A stretch of DNA of 23,965 nucleotides from a virus. The stretch covers positions 1-23,965 of IMG/VR virus record IMGVR_UViG_3300006749_000128; one strand, written 5' to 3'. A program made the translations under genes and the position numbers. Below the pieces are notes generated by a model, which saw nothing but the letters and a program-made list of their open reading frames with translations, was not told the DNA's origin and did no database searches. This document shows positions 3 through 7,049 of this stretch, in pieces (position 1 is the first letter of the stretch; each line of letters opens with the position of its first letter).

Positions 3-725
3 TGGGAGATAGACACTGGCATTGTCTGCCCAGATGCGGGAGAGTATTGGGACTGCATCCAGTCCAACCCGTATCAACGGTGGATGTATCTGGGTGCTAA
101 GTTTACGCCAGTCAACTGGTACTTCGACGGACCAGAGGGATGCTGTCCAAGAAATGGGGATCTTGTTGACCTTGAGTACGCATGGTGTGACTCATGGATT
201 CTGCATGGTCCACTTGGCAAGAAGTATGGCAGCCAGTTTCCACAATACAAGTATCCATTGGTGCAGCAGCAACACAAAGACCTGATTACCCCGCATTACT
301 CATACAACCGAGTTCTCAAGTTCTGGCCTCACCGGGAAACTATCGTTGGTGAACAATGCTGCTCCTCTCCATCCCAGAATGACTATGGCGACTTGATCCG
401 TTGGAACGCTGATGTGGATTGGGGAAGCGAGAAGTGGCCTGGTTCGTTCCACATTGCTCGATTTACTGGTCCTGATTACTTTGGATCTGGGGGCGTTGTT
501 CGCTTTGCTTGTGGCAACGGACACCCATGTGATCCGGCACCGTACTCTGTGAATTACTACGCGGATAACCTCTGCCCGTCAGACTTGAACGAAGATGGCA
601 CGGTTGGGTTCCAAGACCTTCTGCAAGTTCTTGGTGATGTTTCTTCTTTCAAGTATCATCCGATGACGAACAACGGCTTCAACGCCATCATCAAAGTCCT
701 CTCGGAATGGGGTAATTGCAAATGA
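3..725 (+). CDS. Cys/Trp-rich protein with C-terminal dockerin-like module (5' partial)
   Basis: The frame is open from the first complete codon at position 3, so the N-terminus lies outside the window; an internal ATG at 84 is probably not the start. The visible 240 residues contain 11 cysteines, including two CC pairs, and many Trp and Tyr, which suggests an extracellular or virion-exposed disulfide-bonded protein. The end (from nt 573) reads CPSDLNEDGTVGFQDLLQVL and, after a short insert, GFNAIIKVLSEWGNC. The first half is a canonical EF-hand loop with Asp/Asn/Asp at loop positions 1, 3, 5 and Asp at 12. The second lacks a clear calcium loop. This matches dockerin modules that begin with a CP and end in WG-x-C. 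The stop TGA at 723-725 overlaps the next gene's ATG. The upstream portion matches no family I recognise. It could be a fibre, a receptor-binding accessory or a secreted protein; with no N-terminus visible, a signal peptide cannot be judged. Confidence 0.8.
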   Translation, partial: WEIDTGIVCPDAGEYWDCIQSNPYQRWMYLGAKFTPVNWYFDGPEGCCPRNGDLVDLEYAWCDSWILHGPLGKKYGSQFPQYKYPLVQQQHKDLITPHYSYNRVLKFWPHRETIVGEQCCSSPSQNDYGDLIRWNADVDWGSEKWPGSFHIARFTGPDYFGSGGVVRFACGNGHPCDPAPYSVNYYADNLCPSDLNEDGTVGFQDLLQVLGDVSSFKYHPMTNNGFNAIIKVLSEWGNCK

Positions 726-2252: not shown

Positions 2253-2356
2253 TTTTGTCCGCGCGACTTCAACCAGGACCAGGCGTAGGGTCCGGTGGCG
2301 GCTCCAAAGACGTAGGATGAGAGGACGACGGCGATGATGGTTCCGATATCGGACAT
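2246..2356 (-). CDS. 36-residue single-pass membrane protein, nested small ORF
   Basis: A short frame begins at ATG 2356 and ends at TAA 2246-2248. It opens with MSDIGTIIAVVLSSYVFGAA, a convincing membrane segment, and closes with an aromatic and basic tail ending in LKSRGQKW. AAGGA at 2364-2368 sits 7 bases before the ATG, a good ribosome binding site. The stop overlaps the start of the metallophosphoesterase gene as ATGGTAA, in keeping with the coupling seen in this operon. Most of it lies inside the 3' end of the 150-residue gene in another frame, where that gene encodes a Pro/Ser-rich tail. The layout and size fit a small holin-like or lysis accessory peptide, but nothing proves expression. 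Very short ORFs arise by chance, so this rests on the ribosome site, the hydrophobic profile and the junction with the next gene. Confidence 0.55.
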   Translation of the reverse strand: MSDIGTIIAVVLSSYVFGAATGPYAWSWLKSRGQKW

Positions 2357-2721
2357 ATTGTTTTCCTTAGCTTCTTGAAAGAGAGAAAGACTGATACGGC
2401 TGCCAGTATGCCGCTAGTGATCGCTGCTGGCAAAATAAGCACCTGATCGTACTTTTGAATTGTATAAGTAAGCAGCACCAATCCGATTCCAACCAGAAAC
2501 GGCAGCTGGCCCCTCAAGGGCAACATCAGAAACCTGCTGGCTGTCATCAAAATCAAGCCGCCGAGGATGCCCAGGCTGCCTACCCAAACCAGTGGACTCA
2601 ACGTAGGGTCCACCTGCGGTACATCCGGCAAGGAGAATTGCGATGATGGCGAGACAAATGATCGCTGCTGGCAAGAGGAGGACAGAAGCAACAGAACGAC
2701 GGCAGCAAGGCCCGTCTTCAT
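2269..2721 (-). CDS. Membrane protein with lipoprotein-like N-terminus, possible lysis-cassette member
   Basis: The 150-residue product begins MKTGLAAVVLLLLSSSCQQR: a basic residue, a hydrophobic core and a Cys at 17. The residues before Cys (SSS) are a weak lipobox, so this could be a lipoprotein signal or a plain signal anchor. Three further hydrophobic stretches follow, around residues 43-61, 67-85 and 94-113. The tail from about residue 125 is rich in Ser and Pro and ends in a PDPTPGPG run. Its ATG overlaps the stop of the 71-residue gene as ATGA. Two small membrane proteins side by side resemble holin/spanin arrangements, but no endolysin is visible nearby and the family is not recognised. 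The low-complexity tail coincides with the 36-residue ORF in another frame, so one of the two may have shaped the other. Confidence 0.7.
   Translation of the reverse strand: MKTGLAAVVLLLLSSSCQQRSFVSPSSQFSLPDVPQVDPTLSPLVWVGSLGILGGLILMTASRFLMLPLRGQLPFLVGIGLVLLTYTIQKYDQVLILPAAITSGILAAVSVFLSFKKLRKTICPISEPSSPSSSHPTSLEPPPDPTPGPG
2364..2368 (-). promoter_or_regulatory. Ribosome binding site of the 36-residue ORF
   Basis: AAGGA on the minus strand, 7 bases upstream of ATG 2356. It lies inside the coding region of the 150-residue protein and is the main argument for independent translation of the nested ORF. Confidence 0.5.
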
Positions 2722-2933
2722 TGCAGCTCCAGCTTCTCCAGCCTGGACAAGATTCTTTCCTGCATCCGAGCAATCGTTTCAAGTTGAGAAATAGTGACAG
2801 CTTGTGTGATAGCCAGTTCATTGATTTTCGCCTGTTGATTCTGAAGAATTCCGTATAGGCCGCCAACGACCAGGACGGTCGTGCAGAGGATGCCGACCCA
2901 ATCACGATTTGAGAGTCGGACAACGTTGCTCAT
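2718..2933 (-). CDS. Small membrane protein with N-terminal anchor and coiled coil (spanin/holin-like candidate)
   Basis: The product is 71 residues from ATG 2933. A longer frame reaching back to 3011 would overlap the preceding gene; ATG 2933 forms an ATGA overlap with that gene's stop and has GGAAAG about 12 bases upstream. The protein has a short basic N-terminus, one membrane segment (VGILCTTVLVVGGLYGIL, about 13-30) and then a heptad-like helix (about residues 34-70) ending in an LSRLEKLELQ stretch. This topology, a single N-terminal anchor followed by a periplasm-facing or cytoplasmic coiled coil, is found in inner-membrane spanins and several small phage lysis or structural proteins. 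It is followed at once by another membrane protein gene. No family is recognised with certainty. Confidence 0.75.
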   Translation of the reverse strand: MSNVVRLSNRDWVGILCTTVLVVGGLYGILQNQQAKINELAITQAVTISQLETIARMQERILSRLEKLELQ

Positions 2934-3469
2934 CAGATCATCTTTCCGAGAATAAAGCCGGTGGTGCTGCCAGCAGAGGCAGTTTTGATGCCTACCAGGA
3001 TCTGGTTGCACCCCATCAGGTCAACAACGTGGGCATCTGGGTCAACAGTGGTAAGAGTTGTTGTTCCGTCAGTGGTGTCTGTCGCAGAGTCACTAATGGT
3101 GATGTCGATGCTGCCAGCCTTGTTGGGCAGGACCATCCACTGTCCACGGACGCCATCCAGAGCCGTCAATGTGGTTTCTGAAGCATCAGCCACCGTACGA
3201 CCGAAGACCTTGACGACAGGCTGTGTAGACACGCTGTTAACCGATCCGGTGTAGCCGTGACACAGAACCAAGCTGGTGCCTATTGGTGCGAAAAGCAGCA
3301 GGGACTTATCTGAGGTGATGTCGTCCTCTGGATCGTTCAGAGTGGCATCGTCCGCCACTTGGCTGTCTTCATGGACTTTGGTCCAGAAAGAGTGAATCTG
3401 AACTGGTTTGCTGATGTCCTCGCTCAGGACATTTACGGTTGGCATTACTTTGTTTGGATCAAGAGCCAT
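2933..3469 (-). CDS. Beta-rich 178-residue protein, putative virion structural protein
   Basis: The 178-residue product has no membrane segment or catalytic motif. It is dominated by alternating short hydrophobic strands and Thr/Ser/Asp/Gly-rich turns, for example IDITISDSATDTTDGTTTL near residue 120. It ends with a strand-rich stretch around DLMGCNQILVGIKTASAGST followed by a short GFILGKMI end, a style typical of small virion or decoration proteins. The start ATG 3469 overlaps the end of the Bbp19-like gene by 11 bases, and its stop overlaps the next ATG. Its place right after the portal and Bbp19-like genes, inside a late operon, supports a virion role. I do not recognise a named family; a head decoration or neck-associated protein is the best guess. 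Confidence 0.75.
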   Translation of the reverse strand: MALDPNKVMPTVNVLSEDISKPVQIHSFWTKVHEDSQVADDATLNDPEDDITSDKSLLLFAPIGTSLVLCHGYTGSVNSVSTQPVVKVFGRTVADASETTLTALDGVRGQWMVLPNKAGSIDITISDSATDTTDGTTTLTTVDPDAHVVDLMGCNQILVGIKTASAGSTTGFILGKMI

Positions 3470-3746
3470 TTGTCATTTCCTCGTGCAAAATGTCTAAAAC
3501 GTCGTAAGTGCTTTGGATGTCCTCAAACTGGGGATCTTGTGGCTTGTAGTTTACGGCGTGAATGATGTGGAGTGCAACACTTCTTTGCCCCTCACGGTAA
3601 ATCAGGTCGTTGGGCTCGCCGTTGTATTGGACGTTCCCGCACCCGAACATTGATGCCAAGTCAGCCAAGACACGCTTGCCCTCCTTGGTCGAAAACACCT
3701 CTTTGTACGACTCGCGCCGCTCGATCTGGCTTTTGTACTTGCTCAT
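3459..3746 (-). CDS. Bbp19-like phage protein
   Basis: The 95-residue protein has the features of the Bbp19-like phage family: a FSTKEGKRVLADLASMFGCG block (about 18-37) followed by an N-x-x-x-Y/R-E-G-x-R-S-V block, here NDLIYREGQRSVALHIIHAV (about 46-65). In Bordetella phage BPP-1 the namesake gene lies beside the portal gene, and the same is seen here: the ATG at 3746 overlaps the portal stop as ATGA. The exact role of the family is not established; it is probably a small head-assembly or virion-associated protein. There is no membrane segment or signal. Confidence 0.85.
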   Translation of the reverse strand: MSKYKSQIERRESYKEVFSTKEGKRVLADLASMFGCGNVQYNGEPNDLIYREGQRSVALHIIHAVNYKPQDPQFEDIQSTYDVLDILHEEMTNGS

Positions 3747-5335
3747 TGCTGTGGAGCTCCTTGGGCCTGCTGGGCCTCACCTTGTTTCTGTGCCAGTTCC
3801 GCCTGCATGGCCTGCTGCTGCATGGCTTGCATTTGCTGCTTTTCAGCTTCAACTTCCCTGGCGTCTTTGAGATATTTGGGATCAACAGAAGACGACTCAA
3901 AGATGTCTCGTATAGCCGCGTCAACATCAATCGTCTTGGCGGCCATAGGGTCGATTTGAAAGAGGACTGAGGCCGCCTGCATTGCCTGCATAAAGCTCTG
4001 AGTGTGAGACTGCCTCTTGGAGTTGGCCATAGGGCTTCGATACTCAACACTCAATGCTCGGCCTTCCAGGACGCTTGGAGGCTCTGGCAAAAGCTTGGCT
4101 TTGTTCAAGCTGATAAAAGTCCTAGAAATAAGTGGATCAAGGAATTCCGCGTAAAGCCTGGACAAGATCGGTGCAGCCTGCATCAGACCTTCCTGACGAC
4201 GCTGGATGATCTCGGTTGCAGTCATGCGGTCGTTGTTGGGCATCTTGAGGTTTTCCAGGAAAAATGCCTTCTCAATACGGCTTTCTTGACGCTGGAGCAG
4301 GTTTTCACCTACACCTGGGTTCGCACCCGACACCAAGGGTCGCGGGTAGTCTCTAGATCCCTGGCGGTAGTAGATCAAACTTCCTGGTGAGGTGCGAAGT
4401 GGGCCTTCAATGCTGTTCGCGGGCATCATAATTGGCGGCCTGATCGCCAGCTCTGATGCTTCTAGGATGTTTCGCGCCATTACGTTGGCCACCTTGATGC
4501 CAGGAAGAACCTTCATCGCTGGTGAACGTCCGTAAGTTTCCTCTGGCGACTTGCTCCACCGTGGGAACAGATATGGCATTTGCTTGTAACCGCCCTCGCT
4601 ACAGATGTGGGCCTCGTTACGCTCAATATAGAACGAGGCATACTCCATGTTGGTGTTGTCCAGCTTGAGCATGTCACGGTCGTACCGCTTGATGATGGCA
4701 TGAATAAACTCAATCTTGCGGCTGCCGTAGTCTCCAGCTGCGGAGCCCTCACGAATCCGATTTAGTGTTTTTTCGGACAGCTGGTCGCCAAACGTTTCGT
4801 AGGCTTCTCGCTCAGTCATTTTGAACTTGCGGTAGACCTCGACTATTTTGCCCTGGTCGTCTTCCATGAGATAGAAGTTGGAAAGATCACGTGCCTGAAA
4901 AGACGGTCCAGAATCGGTGTCATTGACAAGCATGCAGCCAGTGCCAAAACAGACGATATCCAAATACATCTCGTGGCTGGCAAGTGCGAACCCGCAGTTG
5001 TTGCCGTCAAAGTATGACAGCATCACCTCAGTTACGTCGTAAAGATACTGATCGACTGCACGAATGCCACGGAGATTTGGGTCAGTCGGCATCAAACTAA
5101 ACCAACGGGTGCTGGTGTTAGTAAGAAGCCCAGAAAGGGCCGCAGCCAAGGATTCGGCAGCTTCAGGAGCTACATCGCTGAAGATTTTGTTTCGACGTTT
5201 CTCGCCTGGTGCATACTCGGTTTGAAACTCCCGTGTGGGCAGAACTAGGTCAGCGACCTCTTGCCAATGGTTGTCAAAGTTGTATCGACCGTTTTTTGCC
5301 TGCTCGAAGCGGGCGATGATGCTTTTGCCATCCAT
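3743..5335 (-). CDS. Portal protein (T7 gp8-like head-tail connector)
   Basis: The product is 530 residues from ATG 5335. A GTG at 5344 in frame would add three residues, but AGGTGG at 5341-5346 is spaced 5 bases before ATG 5335 and would overlap the GTG start, so ATG is preferred. The N-terminal region (DNHWQEVADLVLPTREF, then IFSDVAPEAAESLAAALSG and LLTNTSTRWFSL) is characteristic of the podovirus head-tail connector family to which T7 gp8 belongs. The length equals that of T7 gp8 (about 536). The portal forms a dodecameric ring at one capsid vertex through which DNA is packaged and ejected. The tail, from about residue 490, is rich in Gln, Ala and Met, as is common for portal C-termini. 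It follows the terminase and the 83-residue gene, while in T7 it precedes the scaffold and capsid genes. Confidence 0.95.
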   Translation of the reverse strand: MDGKSIIARFEQAKNGRYNFDNHWQEVADLVLPTREFQTEYAPGEKRRNKIFSDVAPEAAESLAAALSGLLTNTSTRWFSLMPTDPNLRGIRAVDQYLYDVTEVMLSYFDGNNCGFALASHEMYLDIVCFGTGCMLVNDTDSGPSFQARDLSNFYLMEDDQGKIVEVYRKFKMTEREAYETFGDQLSEKTLNRIREGSAAGDYGSRKIEFIHAIIKRYDRDMLKLDNTNMEYASFYIERNEAHICSEGGYKQMPYLFPRWSKSPEETYGRSPAMKVLPGIKVANVMARNILEASELAIRPPIMMPANSIEGPLRTSPGSLIYYRQGSRDYPRPLVSGANPGVGENLLQRQESRIEKAFFLENLKMPNNDRMTATEIIQRRQEGLMQAAPILSRLYAEFLDPLISRTFISLNKAKLLPEPPSVLEGRALSVEYRSPMANSKRQSHTQSFMQAMQAASVLFQIDPMAAKTIDVDAAIRDIFESSSVDPKYLKDAREVEAEKQQMQAMQQQAMQAELAQKQGEAQQAQGAPQQ

Positions 5336-5336
5336 G

Positions 5337-5588
5337 TCAACCACCTAAAATTGAGTTGTTTGTTAATCCTTGGAATCCAGATCGGATTGTAGAGCCAATT
5401 AGACCTTGCGACATAAACTGCTTGATCTCCAGATCACGTTGTTCTTGTGCCTGGGTGGTAAAAAATTGATTCTCCCTGGTGGTTGCGCCGCCGCCAAGAG
5501 GCACGTTGAAACGACCAGAAATGTCAAATCCCTGTTGGGTTTGTTGCTGGCCAAACATGCCAGATGTGTTGGTGAAAAACTGACTCAT
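5337..5588 (-). CDS. Small Gln/Thr-rich protein between terminase and portal, unknown function
   Basis: The 83-residue protein starts directly after the terminase stop (TAG then ATG) and ends one base before the portal ATG. It is rich in Gln, Thr, Gly and Asn, with a polar N-terminus (TNTSGMFGQQQTQQGFDISG) and one likely helix (about 48-62, AQEQRDLEIKQFMSQ). It has no membrane segment and no recognisable motif. Its position between two packaging genes could suggest a head-assembly or packaging accessory, but this is inference. It does not look like a small terminase, which normally carries an N-terminal DNA-binding helix-turn-helix and a longer oligomerisation core. Confidence 0.7.
   Translation of the reverse strand: MSQFFTNTSGMFGQQQTQQGFDISGRFNVPLGGGATTRENQFFTTQAQEQRDLEIKQFMSQGLIGSTIRSGFQGLTNNSILGG
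5341..5346 (-). promoter_or_regulatory. Ribosome binding site deciding the portal start
   Basis: AGGTGG on the minus strand lies 5 bases upstream of ATG 5335 and inside the last codons of the 83-residue gene. It overlaps the alternative GTG start at 5344 and so argues against it. Confidence 0.65.
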
Positions 5589-7049
5589 CTAAAGCTCCAG
5601 TGGATCATAATTGTGTTCGGCAAATGGTTGTGGTTCAAACGCAATATCTTCTTCCGTGAGGGCGTATCGGAGCATCATTACTGCATACCTAGTAGCCGAC
5701 TCGATGTCGTCACGCTCTGCGACAATGCGACCGTCCTTACGGTGCAACATACGTTTTTCTTCAAACCACTCGTTAAGGTGACGGAATACCTTAAATCTGC
5801 CGGTTCTCATTCTCTCCAAGATGTCCAGAGTTGCAGGCTCTCGCGCTTGCCCACCACCCTTGTCGTCTTCGTACCTAGCGGACAGGTAGAGCATGTTGAC
5901 GCCACACTCCTCATACTGGTCACGCAACGCTTTGCCGCCGCCTTTGTCCCTGGTCATGCCGTCGTGAGGCCATGCGACTGGTATCCACTCTGCCCGCGAG
6001 GTGATCGCCTGAGCGTGATAAGCCGCTGTCTCGCCTGACTTACGATAGCAGTCAGTTACATATACGATGTCCGCGTCGGCGTCGTATGCGATCCATGCTG
6101 CCCCTGCTGGGTGGTCGATTCCGAAGTCGATTCCGCAGATGCGGCGGAAGTACGCGGGGATTGGGAATGGATCGCAAACTATCTCCTCGTCAGGGACGTT
6201 GTAAACACCGCCAGAGCCGAGCAGGGGCGTACCTTTCGCCCGCGTCGCCCGTTCATGCTCTGGGTAAGATTTGAGTAGTCGGTTCCGTTCCGCCTCGTCC
6301 AGGTGAGGACTCTGCTCCCAAGTGGCGGTTGCGTAGTAAATTCCGTCGCCGCCGTCAAGGAAGTGCCTGACAATATCTGACATGCCAAACAGAGGGGTAC
6401 GGGTGAACAAGATCAACCCCTTCTTGTCCAAGGTACGGGTCTGGCATTCAGTGAAAATTGCATGGTCAGTTGGTTCTTCGTCAAGCCACACGCCGTGCCG
6501 TGACACACCTTGAAACTTGATGTTGCCTTGTTCGTAGGACTTGAAAGCAAGCTCTGACCAGCCGCCGGAAGAATGCTTGACTTTCACAGTGTCAATCACG
6601 TTTTGGACGCCACACTGACGGAAATCCACGTTGCCGATGTGCTCTTTGGGAATCCACCCTGTGCCGTCCGGTACCTTTGTACCAGGCTCCATTGCCCCAA
6701 CCAGGGCGAACTGGCAGACATCACGAGTAAGCTCGTTGGTTGGTCCTGCGACAATCCAGGAAGTGGGTTCATCAAACCTTCGACCCTCCCACCAGTCTGG
6801 GTACAGGCCAGTGAGGTGCAGTGCGACTTCAGCAGCCGCTGATCGCGTCTTGCCTGTCCGGTTCCCTGCAATAATTGCACGCTCAGGGCATTCGGTTCCA
6901 CGATTATGCCACTCCGCCTGCCAATCGTACGGACCACCCTCGTTACCCTTACTGGCAAGGCCACCGTACTCACCCAGCAGGCGAGTTTGACTCTTGAGCT
7001 TTTGCAGCTCCTCAAGTAACTCCAGAACCTGTGCGGCTTCTTGACTCAT
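5589..7049 (-). CDS. terL: Terminase large subunit
   Basis: The 486-residue protein has an ATPase domain with Walker A GNRTGKT (62-68) and Walker B VWLDEE (187-192), and a coupling-like segment LILFTRTPL (212-220). It then has an RNase H-like nuclease domain beginning at CGIDFGID (305-312), with later acidic clusters near EDD (about 390) and RDDIESATRYA (about 448-458). TerL is the motor that pumps DNA into the prohead through the portal and cuts concatemers. Length is normal for the family. The ATG overlaps the stop of the fibre gene as ATGA, and the gene is followed immediately by the 83-residue protein and portal. No small terminase is recognisable nearby. Confidence 0.96.
   Translation of the reverse strand: MSQEAAQVLELLEELQKLKSQTRLLGEYGGLASKGNEGGPYDWQAEWHNRGTECPERAIIAGNRTGKTRSAAAEVALHLTGLYPDWWEGRRFDEPTSWIVAGPTNELTRDVCQFALVGAMEPGTKVPDGTGWIPKEHIGNVDFRQCGVQNVIDTVKVKHSSGGWSELAFKSYEQGNIKFQGVSRHGVWLDEEPTDHAIFTECQTRTLDKKGLILFTRTPLFGMSDIVRHFLDGGDGIYYATATWEQSPHLDEAERNRLLKSYPEHERATRAKGTPLLGSGGVYNVPDEEIVCDPFPIPAYFRRICGIDFGIDHPAGAAWIAYDADADIVYVTDCYRKSGETAAYHAQAITSRAEWIPVAWPHDGMTRDKGGGKALRDQYEECGVNMLYLSARYEDDKGGGQAREPATLDILERMRTGRFKVFRHLNEWFEEKRMLHRKDGRIVAERDDIESATRYAVMMLRYALTEEDIAFEPQPFAEHNYDPLEL

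Follow-up and report, generated by a model that had tools for sequence, protein, structure and literature searches.

The ORF at the contig edge of the analyzed DNA belongs to a conserved, mobile phage gene family which carries a divergent GC-type dockerin outside the limits of the curated dockerin family. The window, i.e. the whole stretch of DNA analyzed here, is a virus record of 23,965 bases with a phage context consisting of a portal, a terminase, tail tubular proteins and very large internal/tail proteins (Table 1). The ORF encodes 11 Trp and 11 Cys and its product ends in EWGNCK. The 11 cysteines, the C-terminal CPSDLNEDGTVGFQD loop (starting at nt 573) and the EWGNC ending listed in a preliminary description were all re-read from the ORF. 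As estimated from the relatives, approximately 110 N-terminal residues of the protein lie beyond the contig edge.

Table 1. Features of the window and genes of the dockerin family or next to it in related contigs; positions without a contig name refer to the window
Feature	Position	Strand	Remarks
Dockerin ORF	3..725	+	240 codons plus stop; C-terminal part of a putative exported-type protein of ~345 aa; 5' end open at contig edge
Divergent GC-type dockerin module (C...WGxC)	573..722	+	Host-module HMM, hhalign; AF2 pLDDT mostly above 80
F-hand calcium-loop-like DLNEDGTVGFQD	582..617	+	Ligand positions invariant or nearly so in 57 sequences
Second, degenerate repeat	651..722	+	Retains helix GFNAIIKVLSEWGNC but not the Asp/Gly loop; aligned to the second repeat of host modules
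Next gene, 167 aa	722..1225	+	ATGA start-stop overlap with dockerin gene; weak match to phrog_486 (virion structural), E 2e-4
Portal / head-tail connector, podovirus context	3743..5344	-	PF12236, E 4e-125
Terminase large subunit	5589..7049	-	PF03237, PF17289, phrog_2
~210-aa proteins with PEP-CTERM-like tail	L017:5081-5701, L291:4823-5458, L049:2824-3459, G008:C1:18155-18778 (L276:4658-5278, minus strand)		Directly beside dockerin genes, mainly in T4-like contigs
~150-aa CxxC neighbor	L061:2124-2588, L007:2169-2591, L033:8723-9175, L198:9513-10001		Several podovirus types
Two to three tandem dockerin-family paralogues	L291:1763-4753, L283:10001-12904, L287:4899-6991		T4-like contigs
Fourth paralogue group	e.g. 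L049:1921-2754		T4-like contigs; module without cysteines

Relatives of the dockerin protein were found at 65 loci in IMG/VR, and at about 90 in viral contigs when an alignment was used as query. Full-length homologues were up to 93% identical to the window protein and further divergent relatives shared ~33% identity, with intact genes of the family encoding roughly 336–369 aa. Neither the protein nor its module had a relative among 50,697 annotated phage records including the HTVC010P-like pelagiphages, to which the portal of the window was 33–37% identical. Additionally, cellular homologues were not found, either of the full-length protein or, in the host genomes examined, of the ectodomain. 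Seemingly longer ectodomain matches in host genomes dissolved once they were inspected.

Within the family, conservation is highest in the module: in an alignment of 57 sequences 23 of its 51 positions were invariant or nearly so, compared to 35 of 284 positions elsewhere. The module lay completely within the last 75 aa and showed the strict C...WGxC pattern in 75 of the 80 unique complete ORFs; the remaining five were CPTDL...WGDC variants. The spacing D-x-N-x-D-G-x-V-x3-D was retained in 240 of 257 homologous viral ORFs. When aligned with host modules the ligands of the first loop were kept, whereas the second repeat kept its helix (GFNAIIKVLSEWG) and lost its loop. Thus, of the two F-hand loops by which dockerins are defined (PF00404) one is intact and the second is without Asp/Gly ligands.

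Scanned directly against Pfam, NCBIfam and PHROGs the ORF had no match, and the same was true for its relatives. The NF041540 model, which has a curated cut-off of 29 bits, matched neither the window (E up to 10) nor the relatives (E up to 1) nor any of 11 phage records, and the phage proteins were without a match to PF00404. By computational comparison with host modules, however, a relationship was detected. When an HMM was built from 20 modules for which NF041540 was the only criterion, the window scored 26.8 bits (E 2e-7) and all 69 family members tested were matched at E 1.5e-5 or better. Among 2,139 decoys, shuffled or reversed, the highest score was 7.7 bits. Using an HMM of 73 host modules, which were partly gathered with the phage motif, the window reached 42.9 bits and the best of the 2,139 decoys 9.4 bits. 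Profile-profile alignment (hhalign) of phage and host modules spanned both repeats with an E value of 4.5e-12 and a probability of 97.6%. By its sequence the phage module is a divergent GC-type dockerin, in which the first calcium loop is intact, the second helix is kept and the second loop is lost. Since the NF041540 cut-off was missed, we refer to it as a divergent relative and do not file it as a member.

The dockerin-type module proposed in the preliminary description is thereby supported by the host-module HMM as well as by the profile-profile alignment. The lack of any dockerin-family match, named there as an argument against the proposal, was found with the curated libraries but not with the profile-profile comparison. 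An EF-hand-like coincidence unrelated to dockerins would agree with the silence of the curated dockerin models, and a PDB profile search with the module placed dockerins and EF-hands side by side at E about 0.01. Nevertheless, such a coincidence is strongly disfavored and highly improbable, as the HMM built from NF041540-selected modules matched every family member far above the decoys, the profile-profile match covers both repeats, and the C-terminal position and the flanking cysteines agree with dockerins.

GC-type dockerins (NF041540, dockerin_GC) are likewise located C-terminally, comprise ~53 aa, start with CP-x-DL-[ND]-x-DG and end with WG-x-C, and the profile comparison argues for homology. 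However, their host representatives have two F-hand repeats, whereas the phage version has lost the second calcium loop, is missed by the NF041540 model and is located on a phage-only ectodomain.

In a scan of the genomes of ~85,000 species the module was present almost only in Planctomycetota and Bacteroidota, chiefly in the orders Phycisphaerales and Flavobacteriales, respectively. In Phycisphaerales the majority of matches covered the whole 50 residues, in flavobacteria the first half only. The modules of these hosts are NF041540-kind GC-type dockerins, several of which also pass the PF00404 model. The closest cellular modules were those of marine Phycisphaerae, e.g. CPSDLNEDGFVGFSDVLEVVASWGPC-LGCPADVNEDGAVEFVDLLQVLADYGDC. 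With the phage profile, four marine Phycisphaerae genomes of ~2 Mb yielded 45–78 modules each, a further genome of the Planctomycetota up to 147, genome G016 a single one and two flavobacteria 11–24. NF041540 gave 36–60 modules for four Phycisphaerae genomes, G016 among them, and 25 for the single flavobacterium that was tested. The preliminary description had suggested to look for the module in the host proteome, and Phycisphaerae, as plausible hosts, indeed carry dozens per genome.

Regarding protein sorting, eight Planctomycetota genomes were searched for exosortase; seven of them had one at E 1e-40 or better and the remaining one, a fragmented assembly, gave no match. Only marginal matches were obtained in two flavobacteria. 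PEP-CTERM-type tails were present in all eight Planctomycetota genomes and hardly at all in the flavobacteria. In the four marine Phycisphaerae genomes 8 of 29 PEP-CTERM matches were located within 1.5 kb of a dockerin match, versus about 4% expected, and several of these loci were orthologous. Host loci with PEP-CTERM beside dockerin genes were seen at G012:C32, G013:C250, G013:C471, G014:C97 and G011:C2.

Taken from these sequence data, the distribution of the module suggests Phycisphaerae (planctomycetes) as the likely host group of these phages. Flavobacteria are less likely hosts because their matches to the phage profile are mainly half modules and PEP-CTERM is essentially absent from them, even though some of their modules match NF041540 in full. 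In a tetranucleotide comparison Phycisphaerae and flavobacteria were not distinguishable. Searches of 298 genomes of the host class, run without a positive control, yielded no relative of the window portal and none of the body of the PEP-CTERM-type protein.

The phage module shares the calcium-loop motif, and possibly the two-helix layout, with the type I dockerins of cellulosomes (PF00404), a model which some of the host relatives pass. In contrast to cellulosomes, no Pfam cohesin (PF00963) was detected in the four marine Phycisphaerae genomes (G011-G014), the putative type of host, despite dozens of GC-type dockerins in each. Therefore, "anchoring" may be the wrong word. A "Planctosome" of cohesin and dockerin proteins has been proposed for freshwater Planctomycetes, with dockerin modules in secreted proteins without a cellulose role (PMC6461901). 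That proposal relies on cohesins, which distinguishes it from the marine genomes analyzed here.

The N-terminus of the protein was accessible through the relatives. The first 12–25 residues were variable in sequence yet hydrophobic in all 68 unique full-length relatives (e.g. MRHLFIVLFTLIFVMPATAQE and MRHFLTLVVCTLSSFSFAS), and in 63 of them this segment exceeded every stretch of the mature chain in hydrophobicity. The best 8-residue hydropathy had a median of 2.72 (minimum 2.01) for the N-termini and of 1.77 for the mature chains. Many of the N-termini were short and without a clear positive n-region. Hydrophobic and variable N-termini fit a signal peptide and would point to export of the family. 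This is in agreement with the preliminary description, in which a search for a signal peptide at the missing N-terminus had been suggested.

An AF2 model of the whole protein based on the 57-sequence alignment reached a pLDDT of 72.5 and a pTM of 0.75 (pLDDT 37.7 in an earlier model from 25 sequences). In this model the ectodomain starts and ends with beta strands and its middle is poorly predicted, and the module contains two helices (residues 297–308 and 318–328). Fold searches with the model gave no convincing match: Foldseek hits in PDB and BFVD had E values of at least 0.6, and the highest Z score in VIA was 4.0. The results did include beta-sandwiches of cohesin and adhesin type, which were too weak to use. 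Within the ectodomain the 57-sequence alignment revealed conserved Trp, Asp and Arg positions. These would suit an exported enzyme or a lysis/release factor which the dockerin holds in place in the host periplasm or outer layer, as would the fact that the host tag sits on many different proteins. However, there was no enzyme match in Pfam, PHROG or NCBIfam, and the fold searches argue against this explanation as well, which we consider quite improbable.

The spread of the gene was likewise determined computationally. According to marker genes, relatives occur in at least four phage types, namely the podovirus type of the window, the G001 podovirus, the 44-kb type of G010 and T4-like phages. 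G001 is a 61-kb podovirus contig (60,954 bases) and its 123-bp direct terminal repeat indicates a probably complete podovirus genome. The T4-like carriers encode gp23-like capsid and gp6/gp25-like baseplate proteins, and their dockerin cassettes are located beside the gp25/gp6 baseplate genes and downstream of the gp23-like capsid genes. The position of the dockerin gene differs between the phage lineages. In a maximum-likelihood gene tree of 68 rows, 40 of which were without a phage-type marker, the types were mixed: the four window-type rows corresponded to four changes, the three G010-type rows to three and the T4-like rows to six. This mixture of labels indicates that the gene moves between phage lineages. 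Such an exchange is expected if those phages meet in one host group.

Computational analysis of the neighborhood revealed two recurrent types of genes. Near the dockerin gene many viral contigs of the family encoded a protein of ~210 aa whose N-terminus is signal-like and whose tail is, for example, VPVPAPGALALGGLSILTGGRRRRN. A second neighbor family of ~150 aa was characterized by a CxxC start, a hydrophobic segment and a PEP-CTERM-like basic tail, e.g. VPEVGQLALLGSLPFLMNKRRR, and its distance to the dockerin gene was often 0–15 bases. In L061 and L031, which are relatives of the window type, a gene with a PEP-CTERM-like tail was present upstream of the dockerin gene. In L045, which shares with the window a metallophosphoesterase at 98% identity, no such neighbor was found within 1.5 kb. 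As in PEP-CTERM/exosortase sorting (TIGR02595, PF07589, PF09721), the phage neighbors and the Phycisphaerae proteins end with P-A/E-P/x-G, a hydrophobic stretch and Arg/Lys. In contrast to that system the tail is found on the neighbors and not on the dockerin protein, and the phage tails are below the curated cut-offs. The L017 protein, for instance, matched PF07589 over the complete motif (1-24/24) with 17.5 bits (E 0.0044), the cut-off being 20.7 bits. As the formal cut-offs were missed, we refer to the neighbors as PEP-CTERM-like. Similar tails are found in Phycisphaerae, and a profile of the ~210-aa type matched only Planctomycetota among the cellular genomes tested. The neighbors count for the host question because Planctomycetota have exosortase and PEP-CTERM tails and flavobacteria hardly do.

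From the sequence features described above we infer export of the dockerin protein and its retention at the surface of a Phycisphaerae host. On balance, we lean towards an exported cargo protein which would be retained at the envelope of such a host and perhaps alters its surface against re-infection. It would comprise a signal peptide, a Cys/Trp-rich and partly beta-rich ectodomain of ~280 aa and the C-terminal divergent GC-type dockerin. The protein might be made late in infection within the Phycisphaerae cell, be exported as host proteins are and be retained at the envelope via the host's own dockerin-recognition system. Its gene would be a mobile cargo gene in at least four phage lineages with probably one host group, often paired with an envelope-type protein bearing a PEP-CTERM-like tail. 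The cell surface could then be changed late; for instance, the protein might mask a surface component or compete for it and thereby keep sibling phages from re-adsorbing. Taken on its own, this surface-blocking function is speculative and rather doubtful. Tentatively, dockerin-tagged and PEP-CTERM-tailed proteins might form an exchangeable envelope-remodelling cassette in several unrelated phage lineages, in which the host machinery would deliver both to the surface and which would probably govern whether competing or sibling phages adsorb.

The location of the dockerin gene among late structural genes, i.e. next to the phrog_486-like gene in the window and near gp23-like and baseplate genes in T4-like phages, counts against export. 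The main rival is a virion-displayed adhesin, with the protein on the particle (at the periphery of tail, head or baseplate) and the dockerin binding a partner in the host envelope to aid adsorption. Proximity to structural genes and the ATGA overlap with the phrog_486-like virion gene make this a serious rival, and the T4-like cassettes next to baseplate genes would fit it too. Adhesion genes are also exchanged between phages. However, the signal-like N-termini in all 68 full-length relatives and the exported PEP-CTERM-like neighbors are unusual for virion parts, and the gene location varies across phage lineages. Virion display is regarded as rather unlikely.

Phage superinfection-exclusion surface proteins exist, e.g. 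the lipoproteins of coliphages. The exported cargo protein proposed here would resemble them as a phage-encoded protein altering the host surface, although no sequence or fold relation was seen. In the open-access literature searched, neither a GC-type dockerin nor a PEP-CTERM-type protein was found described as encoded by a phage. Dockerin similarity was noted for gene 40 of Vibrio phage VvAW1 (PMC3558961) and a carbohydrate module was described in an E. coli phage tailspike (PMC5967307); neither of them gave a match here.

The shared host-type tag suggests, on the level of sequence, that these phages infect Phycisphaerae and place their own proteins on the host surface. Such tags would help to tell which uncultivated marine phages infect planctomycetes. 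Moreover, they would offer a way to ask what GC-type dockerins bind in genomes apparently without cohesins.

As a minor observation, two small overlapping genes with membrane segments on the minus strand of the window (2269-3011) possibly represent a lysis cluster. One of them (2269-2721) has a lipoprotein-like start and the other (2718-3011) a weak holin match.
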